Positions 9,530 to 19,126 of a DNA stretch of 38,526 bases are shown in pieces; within the stretch, counting starts at the first letter, position 1, and the number at the start of each line of letters is the position of its first letter. Below the pieces are notes generated by a model, which worked only from the letters and a program-made list of their open reading frames with translations, ran no database searches and had not been told where the DNA came from. Source of the stretch: Xanthomonas sp. Its GTDB lineage: Bacteria > Pseudomonadota > Gammaproteobacteria > Xanthomonadales > SZUA-5. The translations under genes and the position numbers were made by a program. Where the stretch lies: contig JAIMJQ010000008.1 of assembly GCA_020693165.1 (NCBI GenBank), forward strand, positions 1 through 38,526. The letters run 5' to 3'.

Positions 9530-9619
<90 letters not shown>

Positions 9620-9625
9620 ACAACG

Positions 9626-9657
9626 AAGCCCAAGCCATTGAATGCTTGGGCTTTTTT
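9626..9657 (+). terminator. Rho-independent terminator downstream of tRNA-Ser(CGA)
   Basis: AAGCCCAAGC (9626-9635), loop CATTGAAT, GCTTGGGCTT (9644-9653), then a run of T. It starts 7 bases after the tRNA. It lies on the element side of the junction, so it appears to have been brought in with the insertion and now ends the tRNA transcript. Confidence 0.85.
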
Positions 9658-9672
9658 GTTTCTGGCGCTGGC

Positions 9673-9699
9673 GCTTACCATAGTGCCTCCCATAATCGC
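9673..9699. promoter_or_regulatory. Possible integrase arm-type sites, left end
   Basis: GCTTACCATA (9673-9682) is identical to 18783-18792 near the other end. A second CCCATA follows at 9690-9695. Short motifs shared by both element ends next to the att cores are typical of integrase or excisionase arm binding; the assignment is an inference. Confidence 0.4.
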
Positions 9700-9821
9700 G
9701 GCGCCCCTTGGCGTTCGGCTGCGGATGCCCACCAGAAACGGCGAAGCCAGCGCGCGTGGGCTAGGTCAATCCGGGTGTGTGCTAGGTTGAACAGCCAACA
9801 ACACCAGGCGCCCTGCAATGA

Positions 9822-10109
9822 AAGCGCAACAACTGGCGCCTGTTCTGCCTTCGGCAGCTCCGCAACCTGCGCGGCGAGGCTGACGCTTATTGCACCAACC
9901 TCGACAGCCCGAACCAGCTCCGGAACGCCTTCGGCTTCCACCTTGGCCGCACTGGCGACACTGCGCGTGCTGACGTTCACCAGCTCTGCGGCAGCAGCCT
10001 GACTGACTTGGGCGAAACTCTGCAAATTTGCAGAGTTTTCAGACGGACGCCCTTCGCCAAGATTCGCCAACTTGGCCCCAACCATTGCCCGCTGGCTCTC
10101 GCTCAGGTG
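9822..10109 (-). pseudogene. ParB-like protein remnant, N-terminal domain missing
   Basis: Residues from HLSESQRAMVGAKLANL through VNVSTRSVASAAKV to AAQVAELPKAEQAPVVAL match the C-terminal half of ParB-like proteins of phages and plasmids, which follows an N-terminal ParB nuclease-like domain. That domain is absent. Just upstream lies a terminator (10116-10140) belonging to the preceding operon, and the only start codon in frame is a TTG inside it. After residue 104 the similarity stops and the frame continues to 9675 with unusual Trp/Cys-rich sequence. It therefore seems truncated at both ends and not translated. It may have taken part in partition or replication of the element. Confidence 0.6.
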
Positions 10110-10115
10110 GGGGGC

Positions 10116-10140
10116 ACAAAAAGGCCCGCACAAGGCGGGC
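10116..10140 (-). terminator. Rho-independent terminator of the element's main operon
   Basis: Read on the minus strand: GCCCGC, loop CTTGT, GCGGGC, then CTTTTTGT. It begins 25 bp after the stop of the last small gene (10165). It would end the long minus-strand transcript. Confidence 0.85.
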
Positions 10141-10164
10141 CCGGTCAGCGGTCACGGCGACGGC

Positions 10165-10350
10165 TCAGTCGGTCAGCGACATTCTTTCGAGTAGCTCATC
10201 AAACGTCGGCACGCGCCGGCCTTTGGTGATGCCCAGCATCTTGCCCAGGCCGCGCAGCGCCAGCGGTTCGCCGTCCTTTGCCAACTGCACCAGCGTCCGC
10301 AACACTTCTACGTCGCGTTCGTGCTCCGTCATGTCGTCATAGTCTTTCAT
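10165..10350 (-). CDS. Small unknown protein, 61 aa
   Basis: I do not recognise a family. The sequence begins MKDYDDMTEHERDVEVLRTL, is acidic at the N-terminus and helical overall, and ends ELLERMSLTD. The start overlaps the upstream gene's stop by ATGA. It is the last gene before the operon terminator. Codon use is like its neighbours, which supports it being real. Confidence 0.6.
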   Translation of the reverse strand: MKDYDDMTEHERDVEVLRTLVQLAKDGEPLALRGLGKMLGITKGRRVPTFDELLERMSLTD

Positions 10351-10547
10351 CGGCTGGCCGCCTCACGTAGCGCCATCATCGCGGCTGCGATTTCCTCGGG
10401 TGTCGCTGGCGGGGTTTCGCCCGTCTGGCCAAGGTACAGGCGCCCCAACATGATCTGCATCGGAACGGAGCCCTTGATCGCGGAGCGCCACTGCGCTTGC
10501 CGCAGCGCGACCAGCATCGCCGGTGTCGGCTTGAATGCGTCGGTCAT
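10347..10547 (-). CDS. Small unknown protein, 66 aa
   Basis: A small protein beginning MTDAFKPTPAMLVALRQAQW. The middle, IKGSVPMQIMLGRLYLGQTG, vaguely recalls a segment seen in phage DNA-packaging-associated proteins (a helix ending in LG-x-x-x-L-G-Q), but this is too short to assign. It overlaps both neighbours by 4 bp (ATGA), so it is part of a translationally coupled series. Confidence 0.6.
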   Translation of the reverse strand: MTDAFKPTPAMLVALRQAQWRSAIKGSVPMQIMLGRLYLGQTGETPPATPEEIAAAMMALREAASR

Positions 10548-10747
10548 GGTGCCGGCCTCGGTGTGGATGCGTCGATTGTGCGAACCACGATGCAGGGCCG
10601 CCCAGGATCGACGCCAGTGCGCTTGCAGGCATCCGCGGCAGTCTCGCCCAAGGCAGCGAGCACAATCGCGACTGGCGCCATGGGGCGCGCGTTCGCCGCA
10701 CGCTGGCGCAGCACTTCCAGCCGTTTGCGGAAAGTCTCAGGTCGCAT
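10544..10747 (-). CDS. Small unknown protein, 67 aa
   Basis: I choose ATG at 10747 (MRPETFRKRLEVLRQRAAN) because it overlaps the preceding gene's stop, as elsewhere in this operon; the frame itself is open further upstream. The protein has a basic, helical N-terminal half and then GETAADACKRTGVDPGRP. No family recognised. It overlaps the next gene by ATGA. Confidence 0.5.
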   Translation of the reverse strand: MRPETFRKRLEVLRQRAANARPMAPVAIVLAALGETAADACKRTGVDPGRPCIVVRTIDASTPRPAP

Positions 10748-10931
10748 TGATCTTCTCCAGTTCGCCGGCAGCATTTCGCCGCATGCCGCCCAGGCGAATA
10801 GCCAAGCTCGGGCCTTTGCCCTTGCGCACGGGGAAGGGCTCATCCTCGGCGAGCAACAGCAGCGGTTCGGGGTTGTCGAATGCGGAGCGACGCTCTACAG
10901 CGTCCAGCCGCTTATGGGCTTCACGTTTCAT
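10737..10931 (-). CDS. Small unknown protein, 64 aa
   Basis: Starts MKREAHKRLDAVERR at ATG 10931, with AGGAG 8 bases upstream, which decides this start over the longer frame to 11015. It contains PLLLLAEDEPFP and ends GELEKINAT. I recognise no domain. It overlaps the end of the DUF5681 gene by 11 bp and the next gene by 11 bp. Confidence 0.6.
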   Translation of the reverse strand: MKREAHKRLDAVERRSAFDNPEPLLLLAEDEPFPVRKGKGPSLAIRLGGMRRNAAGELEKINAT

Positions 10932-11343
10932 CGTCGGGTTCTCCTGATTCCAGTGCGGTGAGCCGCCGCTCGATTTCGTCCAGTTCAACGACGCGACCGA
11001 CTGCGGCCACGGCATCTACCAACGCGCGGCCCGTGTGCGGGTCGATCCGGCCATCGGCGATTGCGGCCAGGATCGACCGCGCTTGATCGGCGAGACTGGC
11101 GCCGGGTGCCATGTCGAAAGAGATCGGATCCGATGCCGGCCGCAGCGGTGCCACGCAGCGCGCCAGCAACAGCGACAGCGCGGCCGGGTCGCCGGCCTTC
11201 GCCAGCTTGACCGCCATCGCGATCAGCTCGGGCGCCTCGGCTTGGATCAACGCCCGCAACTGCGAGCGCCGATCCTTGGAACCGGGCTTGCGCCCGGTCG
11301 GGTTGCCGGATTCGCCCTTCTGCCATCTACCTTTGCGCGGCAT
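10921..11343 (-). CDS. DUF5681 domain protein
   Basis: A 140-aa protein with the DUF5681 signature near its N-terminus: WQKGESGNPTGRKPGSKDRR (residues 7-26). This domain is common in phage and prophage genes, often near terminase genes, but its function is not established. The rest is helical and Ala-rich (VKLAKAGDPAALSLLLARCV; RIDPHTGRALVDAVAAVG). No large terminase is present in this element. It is followed by a run of overlapping small genes. Confidence 0.75.
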   Translation of the reverse strand: MPRKGRWQKGESGNPTGRKPGSKDRRSQLRALIQAEAPELIAMAVKLAKAGDPAALSLLLARCVAPLRPASDPISFDMAPGASLADQARSILAAIADGRIDPHTGRALVDAVAAVGRVVELDEIERRLTALESGEPDDET

Positions 11344-11369
11344 GGTGGGTTGCTCCTATGTTGCAAACA

Positions 11370-12119
11370 TCAGGCCGCAGCCGGCAGCGTGAGTGCCAAC
11401 GGCTTGGCATCGCTCAGCGGTTCGACTGGCGCCCCACCGGAGCGGCCCGCCGACAACTGCGACAAGCACGCGAGGCACTGCCCGACCACTCCGCGCGCCT
11501 CGCGCCAGCTCGCGGCCTGCTGCGCGGCTGCGGTCGCCGTGGGTGCGTTCGGGTTGAACGTCGCCCATGCCTTCTTGGCGAGGTCGATCACGGCGGCTTC
11601 GAACCCGAGCGGTTGGCGAAGGACTGCGCGGCACACGCCGAGGTTGTCGCGCACCAACTTCATCTGCTCATGGGGCGGCTGCTGGCGTGCGTACTGGCGC
11701 ATCTCGGCATCCAGCACGGCATCTGCTGCGGCGGCGGGTTCGATGGGCAGCGGCACGGTATCGCGCGCCTCGGCTGCGAGCGCGGCATCAAGCGCGGTTC
11801 CCACTTCGGCCATGATCCCTTCGATCTTCGCCCGATACGTCTTGGCTGCGGTGAAGATGTCGGCGGACTTCGCCGATGCCGTCAGCCGCTCAGACTGCGC
11901 GATCTTGTTCGCTTCCATCGCGAAGTCGGCCAGGGCGATGACGGCGGCGCCGGCACGCTGCGCCGGGAACGTCAGCACCAGCGCGTCGAAGTCGGGCGGG
12001 GAAATGTAGGCGTTGAATCCGCCCACACTGAGCCCGAGCACGCCTCGGGGAAACACTTGCGCGCCACGCTCGCGGCAGCGGTCGTTGACGGCTTCGAACA
12101 CTTCTTTGGGGGTCTGCAT
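11370..12119 (-). CDS. Unknown protein, 249 aa
   Basis: I do not recognise a family. The N-terminus, MQTPKEVFEAVNDRCRERG, is followed by a mixed region GVLGLSVGGFNAYISPPDFD and then long Ala-rich helices to the C-terminus, with possible coiled coil at about residues 80-140. There is no signal peptide or membrane helix. Two Cys in GVVGQCLACLSQL near the end are not a recognised motif. It sits between a 92-aa helical protein and the DUF5681 gene on the same strand. Confidence 0.65.
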   Translation of the reverse strand: MQTPKEVFEAVNDRCRERGAQVFPRGVLGLSVGGFNAYISPPDFDALVLTFPAQRAGAAVIALADFAMEANKIAQSERLTASAKSADIFTAAKTYRAKIEGIMAEVGTALDAALAAEARDTVPLPIEPAAAADAVLDAEMRQYARQQPPHEQMKLVRDNLGVCRAVLRQPLGFEAAVIDLAKKAWATFNPNAPTATAAAQQAASWREARGVVGQCLACLSQLSAGRSGGAPVEPLSDAKPLALTLPAAA

Positions 12120-12134
12120 GGTCGTTTCTCCGGG

Positions 12135-12413
12135 TTAGGCGAAGGCCGCATCGAATGCGGTTTGCATGGTGGTCATCGCATCCACACGGGCCTGCGCGAT
12201 GCGCTCACGTTCCGCCAGGGTCGCGATAGCGACAGCAGCGGCGTAAAGGTCAGCGGTGAACTGCTGGACGGCCTGCGCGGTCTTGGGCTCACGCCCGAGC
12301 GCATCCGCCAGCAAGGCGGCTTCTGCGGTCGTGGTGTCGGTCTGGATCGCCGTCAGTTCGGCGCTCGCTTGCGCGAGTGCGGCGGCTACTTGTGCCTTGT
12401 TCACTTGGTACAC
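12135..12413 (-). CDS. Unknown helical protein, 92 aa
   Basis: The whole protein, from MYQVNKAQVAAALAQASAE to DAMTTMQTAFDAAFA, is predicted helical and Ala/Thr-rich with heptad-like spacing. A coiled coil or a small dimer is likely. No family recognised. It lies 15 bp upstream of the 249-aa gene on the same transcript. The repeat array 12461-12544 lies just upstream of its start. Confidence 0.6.
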   Translation of the reverse strand: MYQVNKAQVAAALAQASAELTAIQTDTTTAEAALLADALGREPKTAQAVQQFTADLYAAAVAIATLAERERIAQARVDAMTTMQTAFDAAFA

Positions 12414-12460
12414 GTGAGTCTCCTATCGGGTTGCCGTGGATCCGCCACGGCGGCGGGTGT

Positions 12461-12544
12461 TATGGGAGCGGTTATGGGAGCGGTTATGGGAAGGGTTATG
12501 GCAGCAGTTATGGGAAGGGCTATGGGAAGGGCTATGGAAACGGG
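12461..12544. repeat. 12-bp minisatellite, seven copies (TATGGGARSGGY-like)
   Basis: Seven 12-bp units: two of TATGGGAGCGGT, one TATGGGAAGGGT, one TATGGCAGCAGT, two TATGGGAAGGGC and a last divergent TATGGAAACGGG. Because 12 is a multiple of 3, every frame stays open. One plus-strand frame would read YGSGYGSGYGKG and a minus-strand frame PITAPITAPITLP. I do not call a gene; it lies in the 218-bp gap 12414-12631. Confidence 0.9.
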
Positions 12545-12631
12545 GCAGGGCATCGGCACCGAGCGCCATGCAGAACAGTCGCTTAGACCATCCTGACGGC
12601 GGAGGCATGCTCCGCCCACACGCTCGCGCGC

Positions 12632-12892
12632 TCATTGCGACACCTCGCGTTGCTTGAGTAGCCAGGTCGTGGCGACGCTCGCCGCCTCGCTGCCGCCGTG
12701 CCGGTCGGGGTGGCATAGCTGGATCAGGCGCCGCAACATGACCGGATCAATCGGCATCGGCGCCGCGGGTGCTGGCGTCGGCTTGTCTGCCGCGTCCTTG
12801 CCTGCCTTCCAGCATGGGAAGCAAAGACGCTTCCACGTCTCGCTGGCCTCGCGCTCGAAGGTGCGGCCGCACTTTGCGCAGGCGCAGTTCAT
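12632..12892 (-). CDS. Zinc-ribbon phage-type protein, 86 aa
   Basis: The N-terminus has two Cys pairs, CAKC (residues 5-8) and CFPC (24-27), forming a probable zinc ribbon. The C-terminal half, LRRLIQLCHPDRHGGSEAA then ATTWLLKQR, is a pattern I recall from small prophage proteins downstream of replication genes; its HPD resembles a J-domain. Function is unknown. It is read 139 bp after the primase gene on the same strand. Confidence 0.7.
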   Translation of the reverse strand: MNCACAKCGRTFEREASETWKRLCFPCWKAGKDAADKPTPAPAAPMPIDPVMLRRLIQLCHPDRHGGSEAASVATTWLLKQREVSQ

Positions 12893-12911
12893 CGCCCACC
12901 CCCGGCCGGAA

Positions 12912-13018
12912 GTGGTTTGAGTGGTTTCGGTGGATTCATCCCACCGTACTTTTCAGATATGTACCTGCCACTTTTCAAAACTTGCGCAGGCACACTCCAC
13001 CCAAACCACCCAAACCAC
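12912..13018. other. Inverted 9-mer iteron pair, possible replication origin
   Basis: GTGGTTTGAGTGGTTTCGG (continuing TGG, 12912-12933) is nearly the reverse complement of 12997-13018; 20 of 22 positions match. Each arm is two tandem GTGGTTTxG 9-mers plus GTGG. The 63-bp spacer is rich in A/T for this genome (for example CACTTTTCAAAACTT). It lies right after the primase/helicase gene, where satellite elements may keep an origin. Origin function is an inference. Confidence 0.45.
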
Positions 13019-13031
13019 TTGTTTTGGCCGT

Positions 13032-15821
13032 TCATGCGACGGCCTCCACCTTCCAGGTGGCACGGTTGCCGCGGTCTGGCCCTCGCACAAAGCGCTTGCC
13101 GTCGACTAGCCGCCCCTGTCTGCCTTCTATCCAGCGCCCCAGGCGCCGCGGGTTGATGACGCCACGCTCGCCCGCGATCTCGTCACACGCATCGTGCAAG
13201 GCGCCTGCGGCGTCATCCAATCCACCCGGCACGTTCGCCGCCTTCTGCACAATCATGGGCGTGTCGCCGTACACCTCGAACCAAGCCGAGATCAGCGCGC
13301 GCAGTTTCATCATCTCGGGGTTCGCGGCCTGGTTGCGCGCGACGGCCTTCGCTGGATCGTCGACGGTGAACCGCGCGAGATCCTGGTCGCGGACCCAGAC
13401 GACGCATTGCCGGATAAGGCGGTCCCATTGCTCGAAGCTCCCCGTGGAGCCCGTGCCGTTCGCCGGCATACCTGCGACGACGAAACCGCGTAGGACGGTG
13501 AGCGCTGCGGCCCGGTAGTAGAGCCAGCGCTCCCGCATGCGCGCGACGGGGCAGAACGGAAACTCCAGCTTGTCGGGCGCCTCGACGCCGTGGTCGAGTC
13601 GGATCGGCAGCACGCGGCGTGCAAGGTCGCCAACGATGGTGATGTTGTTGCCGGTGGCGAGGACCAGCACGCGCGTCGGCACGGTGACTTGCTCGCTAAC
13701 GCCGAGCTTGCGGTCGCTGATTTGCGAGCCCGTCAGCATCGCGCACAAGGTATCGCTGGCAAGCTGGCCGTTGATGTTGTCCAGCAGAATCCCCGGCACT
13801 CCGCCCAGCAGCGACGCCATCAGACTCTTGCGCTGTTCCTCCGGCTCGGTAGCCCACGGCGACACTGGCACCTCGACGCCTGCCAGCCAGCCGACTGCCT
13901 GCGCTGCCTTTGTCTTGCCGCTGGCGGGTGTCGGTGCGTCCCATGCGAAACCCGGCGCCGTGTTGAGGGTCAAGCGCTGAACCGCGGTCAGGCATGCGGC
14001 CAGGTGAACCCCGCGATCTAGCGCACTCGCGAACGGGAAGTGCTCGAACGGTTCCCAAAGGGTAGCGAGTGCCTCGCGCACCGCGTCAGCGCTCGGTCGC
14101 TCAGGGATCGCCGGCCAGTTATCGGGATGGTCTGCCAGCAACAGCAAGCCCGTGTGCTCGTCGAAACCCGGTGAACTGAGCAATGAACCGTCAGGTCGGA
14201 GGATCGGCGCCCGAATGACGCCGGTCAGCTCCGGCACGCTCCATGCGCCGCGGTTGTGCAGCAAGCGCGTGTGCAGCTCGCCGGGACAGTCGATGGAGTG
14301 CCATGCGCCGGATCGTTTGTCGAACTTCTGGAACGTGGCAATCGTTTCAAGGTGATTGCGGAGGTAAGGTCCGGTGACGGCATGAATGCCGCCGTCTGCC
14401 ACGCGGACCAACTGCCCGCCTCGCTGGTAGACCTCGCAATGCAGCCGCAGCAGTTCGTCGGCTTGCTGGACAATGCGCGGCCCTTCGGCCTGCGCTACCT
14501 GAATCGTGGCGCTCGGGCGTTCGAGCGTGAAGCGCTGGCCGCCGTGCGCGTGGGAGTGGATATAGGGACGGCCGCCGCTGCGTAGGTTCGCCCATGCGAT
14601 GCGACTGTCACGGCCGTAGCCGGGTTCCAGCGGATCCGCGAACCGCTCGTTGTGCCAGCGCCTGGGATCGTCCAGGATTTCCCCGACCGTCACCTTCCGA
14701 CCGCTGGAATGGATCAACTCGAAGTCGCCGAAAAGTCGGCGGTCGACTACTGCGCGCTCGAACTGTGCGCGGATGCTCTCGCGCAGTGTCGCCGCCGCAT
14801 CGTCAGGCATGCCGGCCAGCGTGCTTGCCGCGGACTTCGACCAGTCAGCGACGCGCGCGTCGACCCACGCGGAGCGCATCTGCGCTTGCTCCGGCGCCGC
14901 TGCTGCCTTCGCCGCGGCCTGTATGTCGGCGAGTTGAATGCGCTCGTCTGCATCGAGATCGCGGAGTGTCGCCGTGTCGATAGGACTCGCCGCCGCATTC
15001 AGCACACGTAGTGCCGGCCTGCGCTGTTCGAGCCCGTCGCCGCAACTGGCGCCAGCAGCGAAGTCGAGTCGCTCAGGCTGGAACACTGCCGCGTCGATCA
15101 GCGAGCGGGCTAGCAGCGTGCCGGCCTTGCTCACCTGATAGTAGCCGTGCCCTGCCAGCCAAAGACGCTCGAACAGTGCCTTCCCGGCCCTCGGGATGTC
15201 GCGCGCATCGGCGACCGGAACCCATCCGCGGAGCCCGCCTGCGCCCTTCAGCTCGGCGCCCGTGCTCGCGTCGTAGATGTAGGTCGAACCGCTGGTGCCC
15301 TGAACTGCCGGTGCGTGCGCCAGCGCCGGCCACGCGCTCACCAGCGCGGACAACAGCGCATCGGCGGTGAGCGGTTCAACGTCCTTCGGCGGGTCGTAGT
15401 CAAGGAACATGACGCCGGGACCGGCCGGCCAATCGAAGTGGTCGCGCGTCCTGGTGATGTCGCCGGCCTGCGCCCTCGCGGTCGACGAGATCGGCGCCGC
15501 CTTGACCTTGGCAACGCCGAAGGTCAACGCTTGATTGCGCGCGAGCCCTGCGACCAGTGCCGCCAGTCCTTCGGCGCCCTCGACCTCCACACGCTGATAG
15601 GCGCCGCGGACCAACTCGCCGCCCGCATGCTTGACTAAGGCGCCGTCGACCAACTCGAAGTGCTTCGACAGTCGCGCCGGGTTGCTGGCGGTTATGACGC
15701 TCAGTGATAGCGCGCTATTACGCGATGCGCTACCATTGGGGTGCAGCCCGTCGCCAATGGTCTGTGCTTCCTCGAAACCCCGCCAGCCCGCGGGGTTTCG
15801 TTCGTCTGGACTAGGCTGCAT
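13032..15821 (-). CDS. Primase/helicase-like replication protein of the element
   Basis: A 929-aa protein. Residues from about 45 (ITASNPARLSKHFELVDGAL) lead into a region like the primase-polymerase domain of phage replication proteins (FLDYDPP near 140, then QGTSGSTYIYD). The C-terminal part is an ATPase: Walker A PASGKTKA (Lys about 636), then PGILLDNIN as Walker B, and LVLATGNNI as sensor-like. This order, primase-like then helicase-like, suits a protein that starts replication of the element. The start is uncertain: ATG 15821 is the only ATG in frame before residue 140, but the first 45 codons overlap strong hairpins and look more like a leader. It overlaps the upstream gene by 11 bp. 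Confidence 0.75.
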   Translation of the reverse strand: MQPSPDERNPAGWRGFEEAQTIGDGLHPNGSASRNSALSLSVITASNPARLSKHFELVDGALVKHAGGELVRGAYQRVEVEGAEGLAALVAGLARNQALTFGVAKVKAAPISSTARAQAGDITRTRDHFDWPAGPGVMFLDYDPPKDVEPLTADALLSALVSAWPALAHAPAVQGTSGSTYIYDASTGAELKGAGGLRGWVPVADARDIPRAGKALFERLWLAGHGYYQVSKAGTLLARSLIDAAVFQPERLDFAAGASCGDGLEQRRPALRVLNAAASPIDTATLRDLDADERIQLADIQAAAKAAAAPEQAQMRSAWVDARVADWSKSAASTLAGMPDDAAATLRESIRAQFERAVVDRRLFGDFELIHSSGRKVTVGEILDDPRRWHNERFADPLEPGYGRDSRIAWANLRSGGRPYIHSHAHGGQRFTLERPSATIQVAQAEGPRIVQQADELLRLHCEVYQRGGQLVRVADGGIHAVTGPYLRNHLETIATFQKFDKRSGAWHSIDCPGELHTRLLHNRGAWSVPELTGVIRAPILRPDGSLLSSPGFDEHTGLLLLADHPDNWPAIPERPSADAVREALATLWEPFEHFPFASALDRGVHLAACLTAVQRLTLNTAPGFAWDAPTPASGKTKAAQAVGWLAGVEVPVSPWATEPEEQRKSLMASLLGGVPGILLDNINGQLASDTLCAMLTGSQISDRKLGVSEQVTVPTRVLVLATGNNITIVGDLARRVLPIRLDHGVEAPDKLEFPFCPVARMRERWLYYRAAALTVLRGFVVAGMPANGTGSTGSFEQWDRLIRQCVVWVRDQDLARFTVDDPAKAVARNQAANPEMMKLRALISAWFEVYGDTPMIVQKAANVPGGLDDAAGALHDACDEIAGERGVINPRRLGRWIEGRQGRLVDGKRFVRGPDRGNRATWKVEAVA
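15707..15800 (-). promoter_or_regulatory. Structured leader at the primase gene start, possible antisense or attenuator control
   Basis: Three palindromes lie in the first 40 codons of the primase frame: CGAAACCCCGC/GCGGGGTTTCG (15773-15783 with 15790-15800), ACCATTGG/CCAATGGT (15732-15739 with 15754-15761) and ATAGCGCGCTAT (15707-15718). P4-like elements control their replication genes by structured RNA (C4-type) at such a position. I can show the hairpins but not the RNA class. Confidence 0.4.
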
Positions 15822-16095
15822 CGGCCAGCCCTCCCTTCTGAACCACTTTCAGCGCCGATTGAACGTGCGCGCGGTCGAGTGCGGACAGAAGCTCCAATCC
15901 GGGAGCGTCCAGCGTGCTGACAACCAGTGTCGAGACTTCGCCGCCGTCGTTGATCGCGATCAGCAGGCGGTCGCCGGACTGGCGCATGTGGATCAGGCGG
16001 ACTGGCTCGCGGATCTCGACCACTGCGGGCGGATGGGTGCCGCTATAAAGGTCGCGCATCGCGACCATGTGGTGATGGCGCTCGGCGGCGGTCAT
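15811..16095 (-). CDS. Unknown protein, 94 aa
   Basis: Start ATG at 16095 (MTAAERHHHMVAMRDLYSG) overlaps the preceding stop by ATGA, so I prefer it to the longer frame. The middle is beta-rich (DRLLIAINDGGEVSTLVVST), ending in a helix (ALDRAHVQSALKVVQKGG). No family recognised. It precedes the primase gene and overlaps it by 11 bp. A regulatory or accessory replication role is possible but not shown. Confidence 0.6.
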   Translation of the reverse strand: MTAAERHHHMVAMRDLYSGTHPPAVVEIREPVRLIHMRQSGDRLLIAINDGGEVSTLVVSTLDAPGLELLSALDRAHVQSALKVVQKGGLADAA

Positions 16096-16310
16096 GCTGC
16101 GGCCTCCAGTTCCTGCAAGACGCGCAGCACTTGGCCGGCCAGAAAGCACGTCATGTCGGCATCGCGGTTGCGGTATTCGATCAGCAGCGAGCCGGGGAGA
16201 TCCTGGGCGAACTTCGCCGGCCACAAGGTTTCCGACTTGTCGTGGATCAGCTCCGCGAACCTGCGGATCTCGCCCAATGCGATTTCAAGGTCGATTGCGT
16301 CGGCGGTCAT
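16092..16310 (-). CDS. Unknown acidic protein, 72 aa
   Basis: MTADAIDLEIALGEIRRFAE begins a helical N-terminal half; a beta segment SLLIEYRNRDADM and a helical end LRVLQELEAAA follow. No recognised domain. ATGA overlaps at both ends couple it to the AlpA-like gene before and the 94-aa gene after. Confidence 0.6.
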   Translation of the reverse strand: MTADAIDLEIALGEIRRFAELIHDKSETLWPAKFAQDLPGSLLIEYRNRDADMTCFLAGQVLRVLQELEAAA

Positions 16311-16558
16311 GCTGCGAACCTCGCCGGCTCGCTGGAGTGCGGCGCGCGCTTCGCGGCGGCTTCCGCTCTCGCGTTCGCGATCAGCGAATCGGCCAGCCTA
16401 TGCACTTCGGCGAGGTCATAGCGGGTCATGCGCCGGCCAAGGCGGATCGGCGTCAGCTTGCCGGCCTTGGTCAGTTCCCAAAGGTGCGTGGTCTTGCACT
16501 TGAGGATGGCGCAAACGTCGTGCCGGTCCCCAAGTCGTGCGTTCACTAGCGTATTCAT
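16307..16558 (-). CDS. AlpA/excisionase-like HTH regulator
   Basis: An 83-aa protein with a MerR-type winged helix-turn-helix: LGDRHDVCAILKCKTTHLWE, then AGKLTPIRLGRRMTRYD, the usual wing of AlpA and excisionase proteins. Such proteins regulate integrase expression or direct excision. I choose ATG at 16558 because AAGGTGAG lies just upstream. The 70 bp before it hold direct repeats and a hairpin (16606-16626), so it probably has its own promoter and may regulate itself. It starts a run of ATGA-overlapping genes leading to the primase. Confidence 0.8.
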   Translation of the reverse strand: MNTLVNARLGDRHDVCAILKCKTTHLWELTKAGKLTPIRLGRRMTRYDLAEVHRLADSLIANARAEAAAKRAPHSSEPARFAA

Positions 16559-16562
16559 GCGG

Positions 16563-16626
16563 CTCACCTTGTTGACGGTGAGCGACATATTGTTGACTCG
16601 GTGATGCGTCGTCTAAACGACGACGC
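16563..16626 (-). promoter_or_regulatory. Operator-like repeats and hairpin upstream of the AlpA-like gene
   Basis: On the minus strand TCACCGAGTCAACAA is followed by TCACCGTCAACAA about 22 bp later, an imperfect direct repeat. Upstream of it is the hairpin GCGTCGTC/GACGACGC (16606-16613 with 16619-16626). Binding of the AlpA-like protein here is a reasonable guess. Confidence 0.4.
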
Positions 16627-16630
16627 GCGA

Positions 16631-17164
16631 TCAAACCGCCTTTGTTCGCGCGTCGCTCGGCTGGACTAGATCGTCAAGCGTGCGCTTGCTGATTCCGTAA
16701 CGCGCGGCCAGTGCCGTGACAGCCTTGTCGTACTGGTCGTTGATCCAGTCTCGAACCCTCGCGGGGTCAAGGTCCTGATTCGGCTTGTAGCCGCGTCCAG
16801 CTACTTGGCGTCGAATGCTCTCGGTGTTTTCATGGGTGTGATCGGCGATGTACTCGGCATCAGCCAGCCATGCCTTTTTCTTCTCGCGAAGGTGTTCCAC
16901 CTCGCGGACCGCTACGCGTGCTTGCTCGGGCGTGCACTTCTCGCGGGTGAATCGCTTCAGGTTGATCTTTCGCCGGCCGGCCAGAATATCCGCGACGATG
17001 ACGCGGACCTCCGGTGTCATCTCGAAACCGCACGCCACCAGCTCCGCCAGCTTGGCCGGGCGCCCTCGGTCGTACTCGCGCACTGCCCAATCCCAAGCCT
17101 GCGGGAAGCCCCGAAACTGTGCCCAGCCCGGAACGCCTGCCCAGTCGGTGCGTGTGGTTGCCAT
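16631..17164 (-). CDS. Unknown protein with C-terminal helix-turn-helix-like segment, 177 aa
   Basis: Begins MATTRTDWAGVPGWAQFRGF. The middle is highly charged (VREVEHLREKKKAWLADAEY) and probably helical. The C-terminus, YDKAVTALAARYGISKRTLD, has the spacing of a helix-turn-helix, so DNA binding is possible. I do not recognise a family. It lies between the integrase operon and the AlpA-like gene. Its upstream region carries the CTAACTATCTGAT motif also found before the integrase. Confidence 0.65.
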   Translation of the reverse strand: MATTRTDWAGVPGWAQFRGFPQAWDWAVREYDRGRPAKLAELVACGFEMTPEVRVIVADILAGRRKINLKRFTREKCTPEQARVAVREVEHLREKKKAWLADAEYIADHTHENTESIRRQVAGRGYKPNQDLDPARVRDWINDQYDKAVTALAARYGISKRTLDDLVQPSDARTKAV

Positions 17165-17181
17165 CCATCCTCCGATCCGTT

Positions 17182-17200
17182 GGCGGAGACTTTCTCCGCC
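17182..17200. repeat. Short hairpin with att-core-like arms
   Basis: GGCGGAG, ACTTT, CTCCGCC. With its flanking bases, TGGCGGAGA (17181-17189) equals part of the att core in reverse orientation, and TCTCCGCC (17193-17200) matches the core forwards. Confidence 0.5.
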
Positions 17201-17235
17201 GCATCCATTGCCTAACTATCTGATTTCGTGAGTCT

Positions 17236-17286
17236 GGCGCCGCGCATGGGACCGGCTTTCCATCGGCCTTCCCATAGCGCGGCGCC
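17236..17286. repeat. Long hairpin between the 66-aa and 177-aa genes
   Basis: GGCGCCGCGCATGGGA (17236-17251) pairs with TCCCATAGCGCGGCGCC (17270-17286), with one bulged base; the loop is 18 bases. It starts 8 bp after the stop of the 66-aa gene. No T-run follows, so it is either a weak terminator or a protein site. A related half, TCCCATAATCGCGGCGCC, occurs at the element's left end (9689-9706). Confidence 0.7.
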
Positions 17287-17294
17287 GTTCTTGC

Positions 17295-17495
17295 TCATCG
17301 CGGAATGCTGTAGCGCGTGCCGGCCTCGCTCATCACGATGGCGCCGGCATTGGCAAGCGCCAGGAAGGCCGCATGGACCGTGCCTTGCGGTAGGCGCCGC
17401 GTCGTCTGAAAGTGCGTGTAGACCTCGCCGTCGGTTGTCGTGCCGTTCGGGCGATCAGCGATGAACCTGCGCACCTTGGCCTGTAGCGGAGTCAT
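17295..17495 (-). CDS. Small winged-helix-like protein, 66 aa
   Basis: MTPLQAKVRRFIADRPNG starts a likely helix. DGEVYTHFQTTRRLPQGTVH and AAFLALANAGAIVMSEAGTRY then follow the helix-turn-helix-wing pattern of small replication or transcription regulators. The start overlaps the integrase stop by ATGA, so it is co-translated with the integrase. It might be a directionality factor or a regulator; this is a guess from size and position. Confidence 0.6.
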   Translation of the reverse strand: MTPLQAKVRRFIADRPNGTTTDGEVYTHFQTTRRLPQGTVHAAFLALANAGAIVMSEAGTRYSIPR

Positions 17496-18748
17496 GCCTG
17501 CGCGGCCTTCAAGCCAAAGTCGATATGCAGCACAAGCCCGTCGGTGTCCTTGCGGTCGAGATACTTCTCCCACGCCTCCATGAGCTTCTGCCGCTTCGCG
17601 AACAGGTCGCCGCGACGATAGGCAGCCTCGACCTTGTTCTTCACGGTATGCGCGAGCGCCATTTCGATCACTTCGGCCGGAAACTGCGTCGTTTCGGCTG
17701 CCCAGTCGCGGAACGCGGACCGGAAACCGTGGACGGTGATGCTGGCCTTCTTCATGTCGACCTGTAGGAACTTGCGCATGCTCTCGGGGTTCATGTGCGC
17801 CCCTTTCTTGATGCCGGGAAGCACGTATTCACCCGCGGTCGGCAGTGCCTTCAGTGCCTTCAGGATCGCCACGGCACGCGGACAAAGCGCGACGCGATGC
17901 TCTGCGGATGCCTTCATGCGGTCGGCTGGCACCGTCCACACTGCGCCCTCTAGGTCGAACTCCGACCACTGCGCGCCGGCCAGCTCGCCGACGCGGCATG
18001 CCGTCAAAATGACCAACTCCAGCGCCTTGGCGCTCAGGCTCTCTTTCTTGCGCAGCTCGGTCATGAATCCGGCCAGCTCCGACCACGGCATCGCTGCATG
18101 GTGCTGGACCTTGGCGATCTTGCCGGGAGCCGCTAGCAGCTCCTCCAGATGCCCCTTCCAGCGCGCGGGGTTGTCGCCCTTGCGGTAGTAGCGAACCGTC
18201 GCCCAATCCAACACCGCTTCGATGCGCTGGCGCACACGGCTCGCGGTCTCGGTCTTGGTTCGCCAGATCTTGTCAAGGCAGCGATGCACAACATCGGTGC
18301 CGATTTCCGACACTGGCAGCGGGTTCAGCAACTTGGCGTAGGTGTCCAGCGTGTTTGCCCACTGCTGCCGGTGCTTGGCATTGCGCCAGCCGGCGCCGTG
18401 CGCCTCGATGTAGGCGGCTGCGCACTGCTCGAACGTCATGCGGCGGGCGTTTTCGAGCGCCTGCGCCTGCGCGGCCTTCTCACGCTCGACCAACGGGTCT
18501 TTCTTCTCGGTCAACTGCGTGCGCAGGACGGCGGCGCGATCCCGCGCGGCCTTCAGCGTCATGGAGGTGACGCTCCCCATGCCCATATCGCGGAGCTTCT
18601 TTGTAGCCGGGTCGGTGTAGCGGAACACCCAGGAACGGGCGTTGCCGCCGTTGCTGACGCGAAGGTAAAGGCAGCCGCCGTCGGCATACATGCCGTCACC
18701 CGATTTCCGCACTGCCAGATCGGTGAGCTTGTTCGTAAACCGTGCCAT
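17492..18748 (-). CDS. int: P4-type tyrosine integrase
   Basis: A 418-aa site-specific recombinase. The N-terminal arm-binding DUF4102 domain (about residues 1-90: LTDLAVRKSGDGMYADGGCL) is followed by a core-binding SAM-like domain (about 105-190) and the catalytic domain. The catalytic set is complete: Arg252 in TACRVGELAGAQW, Lys279, His340 and Arg343 in HGFRSAFRDWA, His367 and Tyr377 in AAYRRGDLF. Such enzymes typically integrate into tRNA 3' ends, fitting the tRNA-Ser repeat. The gene lies 178 bp from attR and reads toward the element's interior. A 66-aa gene overlaps its stop. It looks intact. Confidence 0.96.
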   Translation of the reverse strand: MARFTNKLTDLAVRKSGDGMYADGGCLYLRVSNGGNARSWVFRYTDPATKKLRDMGMGSVTSMTLKAARDRAAVLRTQLTEKKDPLVEREKAAQAQALENARRMTFEQCAAAYIEAHGAGWRNAKHRQQWANTLDTYAKLLNPLPVSEIGTDVVHRCLDKIWRTKTETASRVRQRIEAVLDWATVRYYRKGDNPARWKGHLEELLAAPGKIAKVQHHAAMPWSELAGFMTELRKKESLSAKALELVILTACRVGELAGAQWSEFDLEGAVWTVPADRMKASAEHRVALCPRAVAILKALKALPTAGEYVLPGIKKGAHMNPESMRKFLQVDMKKASITVHGFRSAFRDWAAETTQFPAEVIEMALAHTVKNKVEAAYRRGDLFAKRQKLMEAWEKYLDRKDTDGLVLHIDFGLKAAQA

Positions 18749-18774
18749 TTTCGCCCCCTTGCCTTCACGCGATT

Positions 18775-18925
18775 TCCATAGTGCTTACCATACTCGCGAG
18801 AGCGTTAGCGCACAACACCATGCGAAGGCATGCGAAGGCATAACAGGCTAACTATATGATCGGGATGGGTTATTGCGGCAAAGTCGCGAAGCTATGCGAA
18901 ACCATGCGCGGCAGGGTTAGGCGGA
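18775..18925. promoter_or_regulatory. Integrase promoter and arm-site region, right end
   Basis: It contains CCATAGTGCTTACCATA (18776-18792), sharing GCTTACCATA with the left end; two adjacent ATGCGAAGGC units (about 18820-18840) and further ATGCGAAACCATGCG (about 18894-18908); and CTAACTATATGAT (18848-18860), matching 17212-17224. On the minus strand TTGCCG and CATATA with 17-bp spacing could be the integrase promoter. Confidence 0.45.
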
Positions 18926-18939
18926 CACCCTCTCCGCCA
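18926..18939 (+). other. attR core
   Basis: CACCCTCTCCGCCA, identical to the last 14 bases of tRNA-Ser(CGA) at 9606-9619. It is also the outer end of the left arm of the palindrome 18926-18994. Confidence 0.75.
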
Positions 18940-18994
18940 GTAACGCAAAAGGCCGCCCGCAAGGCGGCCTTTTGCGTTACTGGCGGAGAGGGTG
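18926..18994. terminator. Perfect palindrome with 32-bp arms at the right junction, bidirectional terminator-like
   Basis: Left arm 18926-18957, loop CGCAA (18958-18962), right arm 18963-18994; every base pairs. The inner part GCAAAAGGCCGCC/GGCGGCCTTTTGC is a standard terminator shape with A- and T-runs on both sides. It may be the original terminator of tRNA-Ser. The outer part repeats the tRNA 3' end in inverted orientation; TGGCGGAGAGGGTGGG (18981-18996) matches 16 tRNA bases (9604-9619) in reverse complement. Confidence 0.85.
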
Positions 18995-19126
18995 GGCGAG
19001 AGGCTCCACGCGGGTTCGACGCGGAGACCAAGGCCCTCGACAATCCTCATGCTGTTCGCCCTGTTAGCCTCCCGCGGAGCACTGGGAATCCGCCATTTGG
19101 TGCGAGCCGCGGGACAAGGGGCGTCG

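Follow-up and report, generated by a model that had tools for sequence, protein, structure and literature searches.

We suggest that the perfect palindrome at the right end of the integrated island in the window (the whole stretch of 38,526 nucleotides analysed here) is the original 3' flank of tRNA-Ser(CGA), which was later split from its tRNA by an integrase-bearing island, and we put the probability of this reading at roughly 0.85. In kind, we regard the feature as a variant form of the RtT repeats that flank tRNA genes, here split by an ordinary tRNA island.

The left arm (18926-18957) and the right arm (18963-18994) of the palindrome, both read on the plus strand, are exact reverse complements over 32 bp with zero mismatches, and enclose a 5-nt loop, CGCAA (18958-18962). 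The runner-up among perfect inverted repeats in the 38.5-kb window has arms of only 13 bp. Folded as single-stranded DNA, the palindrome strand has a predicted energy of -46.4 kcal/mol (z = -15.6), and none of 200 dinucleotide shuffles is equally stable. The outer portion of the left arm is the attR core CACCCTCTCCGCCA (18926-18939, plus strand), which is identical over 14 nt to the last 14 bases of the tRNA (9606-9619). The end of the right arm, together with two bases beyond it, forms A' (18981-18996, minus strand), a 16-nt reverse complement of tRNA positions 9604-9619. The first-pass annotation, made from the window alone, had reported the perfect 32-bp arms and the 14-base and 16-base matches, and all of these values are correct. 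Joining the island flanks in silico gives palindrome arms of 34 bp that reach 16 nt into tRNA-Ser(CGA); thus, the two extra bases were part of the tRNA side before integration and, judging from the sequence, the outermost two positions of the left arm now come from the island. The centre of the palindrome (18947-18973) is symmetric on both strands and consists of A4, GC stem, loop, GC stem and T4, with the GC-rich stem-loop at 18951-18969. A terminator scan with a threshold of 5 T makes no call there and, because the T tract falls below this threshold, we refer to the centre as terminator-like. Rfam at its gathering threshold names nothing at the palindrome.

The tRNA-Ser(CGA) gene lies at 9530-9619 on the plus strand, and its last 14 bases are the att core at attL. 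The island between attL and attR (9620-18925) is 9.3 kb long, is bounded at both ends by the direct repeat of the tRNA end (9606-9619 and 18926-18939), and contains an integrase gene, which adjoins attR (17492-18748, minus strand) and encodes a tyrosine recombinase with the Pfam domains Arm-DNA-bind_3, Phage_int_M and Phage_integrase. A GGDEF gene lies to the right of the palindrome and the island. Behind the tRNA, a terminator supplied by the island and followed by a T tract (9625-9654, plus strand) now takes the place of the original flank; a terminator of this type is also present in G007, a genome of the same family with a homologous island layout, and in the related genome G004, where it follows a direct copy of the tRNA end. 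The 10-mer GCTTACCATA is found just inside both island ends (9673-9682 and 18783-18792), after attL in G007 and within the G004 flank, and is possibly an arm-binding site of the integrase. The island also encodes a 929-aa protein (13032-15821, minus strand) with zero matches in Pfam, NCBIfam or PADLOC, whose PHROG matches are annotated as DNA primase and DNA polymerase/primase; from these matches, the island may be a replicating element resembling a phage satellite. A search of the island for defence genes found none.

The same flank is present in relatives at tRNA-Ser genes that no island interrupts. Searching 299 genomes of the order with a layout pattern (tRNA end, 25-55 nt, inverted tRNA end), we found the arrangement of tRNA end (A), hairpin and inverted copy (A') directly after an uninterrupted tRNA-Ser in 24 genomes, and the backward-read control pattern in none of the 299. 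In a scan with one genome per species (84,980 genomes), at least 118 stretches have this layout; most of those listed have their first base right where a tRNA-Ser gene ends at its 3' side, and the matches listed include named isolates of Dyella, Luteimonas, Pseudoxanthomonas, Rhodanobacter, Massilia and Marinobacter; one of the isolate genomes, that of Dyella jiangningensis, is complete. The layout thus found at uninterrupted tRNA-Ser genes extends across phyla. Hairpin and spacer sequences vary among species yet remain self-complementary: among the 108 distinct palindromes in the matches listed, 86% of the inner pairs are Watson-Crick and 90 palindromes have a T run of at least 4. At the variable T-stem position, which lies outside the search pattern, A' has the base of its own tRNA in 81 of these 108, and at tRNA-Ser(UGA) genes with other acceptor stems A' matches the respective stem (L191, L192, L206, L209). 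When 85 tRNA-Ser genes were sampled without regard to the presence of a palindrome, it was clear in 11, and the remaining sample includes genes with a weaker A' or with later parts only. Based on these sequence comparisons, the palindrome would be the normal, native flank of this serine-tRNA gene and not an integrase product.

Two observations were made alongside these searches. Outside Proteobacteria, a minimal version at L057 (Aminicenantes; the same pattern also matches L128) consists of tRNA-Ser followed by A', one short hairpin and A'', with a further partial unit next to it and without a terminator-like stem. In addition, the Rfam sRNA sX4 (RF02223) matches tRNA-Ser(CGA) plus the palindromic terminator region in three loci (L042, 1406-1573; L045, 1492-1656; L040, 1492-1655), and sX4 in these genomes may simply be the tRNA-Ser(CGA) transcript.

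Judging from its sequence context, A' opens an RtT-like unit made up of A', the GGTTCGAC motif, hairpins and a second stretch of tRNA end in direct orientation (A''). The order behind A' in relatives is GAGAACCC...GGTTCGAC, two to four hairpins and CAATCCC, which in many of them continues into A''. At tyrT of E. coli, the RtT repeat, annotated as the small RNA rttR, is present three times, and each repeat runs from an inverted piece of 10 nt through GAGAAG...GGTTCGAC and hairpins to a direct copy of 19 nt. The Rfam RtT model (RF00391) gives weak matches behind A' in relatives; matches that pass its gathering cut-off occur in 5 of the 81 order genomes covered, and the window and its genome have none at that level. 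R1, a covariance model that we built from RtT-like units leaving E. coli out, recovers all three E. coli tyrT repeats (E 2.5e-6 to 8.5e-5). In the window, R1 identifies a truncated copy at 18981-19046 (plus strand) that comprises A', the CGGGTTCGAC motif and the tail GACAATCC; this is the sole match in its genome (22.1 bits, E 9e-4), with most of the score coming from A', as the tRNA alone scores 14.4 of the 22.1 bits. The window form of the GGTTCGAC motif is GGGTTCGAC, and the window motif CGGGTTCGACGCGGAG matches the G007 and G004 units in 15 of 16 positions at the expected place, a match that 4 of 500 shuffles equalled. Like RtT, the truncated copy lies directly 3' of the tRNA once the flanks are rejoined, as it does without rejoining in G004, and has a 16-nt inverted T-stem/acceptor segment as well as the GGTTCGAC motif. 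The hairpin array has been deleted in the window, is altered towards its end in G007 and is present in G004; likewise, the closing direct copy is present in G004 and absent from the window, where the sequence diverges after CAATCC. Because A' alone scores about 14 bits and the hairpins and A'' are lost, we refer to the window copy as a remnant rather than a member. Sequence similarity makes the palindrome flank part of a repeat that is widespread beside tRNA genes and related to E. coli RtT.

The history of the site can be read from G007 and G004. In G007, the tRNA is followed by the island-type terminator, approximately 24 kb, and then CACCCTCTCCGCCA with its own palindrome and RtT-like unit, with a second A' further along; its integrase adjoins attR as in the window and is 64% identical to the window integrase. 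The two sites also share att flanks, i.e. GGCGGA before the attR core and bases after attL. In G004, the order is tRNA, hairpin, A', intact unit and A'', with an island-type flank only after A'' and a partial integrase match further on. From these arrangements, the unit predates the island. All three islands (in the window, G007 and G004) lie at direct copies, twice at A and once at A'', and in this small sample none is inserted at the inverted A'. The G004 arrangement suggests that islands can use the direct copy of the tRNA end in an RtT-like unit as a second landing site.

In the model that we suggest, the original flank would have run from the tRNA end (A) through a hairpin, terminator-like and symmetric on both strands, to A' as the opening of an RtT-type repeat. 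At the empty site, the hairpin would have stopped the tRNA transcript ahead of A'; A and A' would then have been unpaired in the normal transcript, so that the palindrome would have been harmless to the tRNA. The island would have entered the tRNA end by recombination within the usual 14-bp core, thereby shifting the palindrome by 9.3 kb and turning its left arm into attR. After integration, the island's own terminator would serve the tRNA, and the inverted core would have no role in integration. In the RtT-like unit behind the palindrome, the hairpins and the direct copy of the tRNA end would since have disappeared. Because the T tract in the window is short, termination, like the order of events, is a step that we infer. 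The first-pass annotation had proposed, as one of two alternatives, that a hairpin extending into the acceptor served as the original terminator of the tRNA, and the layout at uninterrupted tRNA-Ser genes in relatives supports this. Its further suggestion that the hairpin competes with tRNA folding holds in part: in predicted folds, a transcript that reads through past A' has its tRNA end captured in a long hairpin (-95.9 kcal/mol), whereas a transcript ending at the hairpin retains the acceptor stem. Three points count against the native-flank reading, i.e. the T tract of only T4, the R1 score dominated by A', and the outcome of our search for an island-free relative with the window's right-hand neighbours, which found none; the peptidase has an ortholog in G002, away from the tRNA.

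At attR, the core is present twice in opposed orientations, 41 bp apart, and A' read on the minus strand runs on into the same bases as A. An alternative, raised in the first-pass annotation, is that the integrase made the inverted second core, by an aberrant or second, reverse integration, and that the opposed cores allow the island to invert or reinsert. We consider this very improbable because the inverted copy occurs without any island at tRNA-Ser genes across phyla, where it follows the sequence of each tRNA, and because the three related insertions, albeit a small sample, sit at direct copies. Even less credible is an assembly artefact in the form of a foldback chimera. The genome, a metagenome-type assembly, is 77% complete in 149 contigs; however, the symmetry ends 16 nt into the tRNA copy, the flanks are unrelated and each has independent homologs, and named isolates, including the complete D. 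jiangningensis genome, carry the structure. A convergent second tRNA on the minus strand was also considered and rejected: the match to the tRNA stops after 16 nt, and ARAGORN finds no such gene.

The symmetry of A and A' might instead be unselected, if template switching during replication at a terminator hairpin copies one arm onto the other and so lengthens the palindrome into the tRNA. The near-complete Watson-Crick pairing along the arm, spacer included, despite differing sequences between species, and the exact copying of the local tRNA are in favor of such a process. By contrast, the conserved and strongly covarying unit behind A' (GGTTCGAC, hairpins, A'') is more than an extended hairpin, and a mild excess of G-T over A-C in the arms (67:42) hints at some constraint at the RNA level. 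As a full explanation we regard template switching as possible but rather unlikely; alongside a native flank, it may be the means that keeps A' perfect. It is also conceivable that the unit functions as an RNA, acting in trans or in processing, in which A' pairs with A'', with the A:A' palindrome as a by-product or a switch for tRNA 3' processing. The small-RNA annotation of RtT in E. coli and the A'/A'' pairing in predicted folds fit this explanation. However, the window has lost A'' while A' remains perfect against the tRNA, the helices are nearly without G-U, and in most cases the unit is preceded by a terminator-like hairpin; we therefore find it improbable. The native flank of tRNA-Ser remains the reading that we prefer.

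A separate question concerns the nature of the repeat itself. In the unit helices, 302 cells are changed on both sides, a count reached in 0 of 500 shuffles, and departures of the G-T and A-C type are about equally rare (11 versus 14 of approximately 895). In the faster-changing tRNA-Ser stems at the same loci, about 10% of the pairs are G-U, a comparison limited by the fact that ARAGORN draws only standard pairs. Because the covariation is Watson-Crick only, it points to inverted repeats conserved in double-stranded form, rather than to a conserved RNA, i.e. to an element at the DNA level; the sequences compared are related and not independent. R2, a model of the core of the hairpin array only, matches in 37 of 61 genomes of the order and, across a sample of 143 gammaproteobacterial genera, in 57. 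The tRNAs beside which it matches are those for Ser, Gln, Arg, Glu and Pro, among others; at the Gln, Arg, Glu and Pro tRNAs, copies of the respective tRNA end are present.

Similar units closed by the 3' end of their own tRNA were observed at Gln (L276 in G007, L267, L296, L302, L307), Arg (L298, L299, L304, L309), Glu (L295, L303), Pro (L309) and Tyr (L172, L175, L181) tRNAs, and tRNA-Gln(CTG) of G007 has four core copies in one array. Core copies also occur elsewhere: G419 has near-identical dispersed copies away from tRNAs (L311-L315), in G422 the array is likewise dispersed away from any tRNA (L329, L330), and in G433 copies lie within ORFs that read through the element (L319, L320, L321, L322, L325), among them one for a helicase-like protein with the insert SGPSLDPTPSGPAWRLSKIAPGDFVE (L321). 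We tentatively speculate that the RtT "RNA family" is a dispersed, hairpin-built gammaproteobacterial element acting at the DNA level, which spreads beside tRNA genes by adopting the 3' end of each tRNA in inverted and direct form and also lands in frame in protein genes, with terminator-centred palindromes that extend into tRNA genes, such as the one in the window, as its signature and the direct copies as spare attachment sites for islands. The palindrome in the window does not need this idea, which is unproven.

Beyond the Rfam description of RtT, the new aspects are perfect palindromes centred on terminator-like hairpins, the occurrence of the same core at other tRNAs and within protein genes, and the pattern of covariation that suggests a DNA-level element. 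A review mentions palindromic elements in prokaryotes (PMC10969869); in the open literature, we found no paper on this palindrome or on RtT beyond enterobacteria, and older tyrT papers probably lie outside this search. Perfect palindromes at tRNA 3' ends can thus be explained without recombinase activity, and an inverted att core need not be a product of integration. Moreover, RtT, annotated in E. coli at tyrT, is extended to a large family, raising the question of whether it represents an RNA or, instead, a DNA element with the ability to copy the ends of tRNAs.

The design of the flank has features of several known systems. It resembles a bidirectional intrinsic terminator in having a GC stem with an A tract before it and a T tract after it, symmetric on both strands; however, the T tract in the window is limited to T4, and the symmetric stretch continues into the tRNA gene, 18 bp past what a terminator needs. 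The island is similar to those that use a tRNA 3' end as attB for a tyrosine recombinase, with a 14-bp direct repeat, the integrase at one end and a restored tRNA end, and differs only in that RtT-like units, through their direct copies of the tRNA end, offer extra landing sites, as in G004. The palindromic elements of Rickettsia are small elements inserted in frame in protein genes, and the RtT-like core array, which is also found within ORFs that read through it, is likened to them by its behaviour only. The closest likeness in structure is to RtT/rttR at E. coli tyrT (RF00391), which shares the position directly 3' of a tRNA, the inverted piece of the tRNA end, GAGAA...GGTTCGAC, the hairpins, the direct tRNA-end copy (19 nt in E. 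coli) and the tandem copies. The E. coli unit has an inverted piece of 10 nt and follows its tRNA without an intervening terminator hairpin. By contrast, the copy in the window is truncated, the host is a tRNA-Ser, and the inverted copy, 16 nt in length, makes up a perfect palindrome together with the tRNA end, with a terminator-like hairpin between the two.
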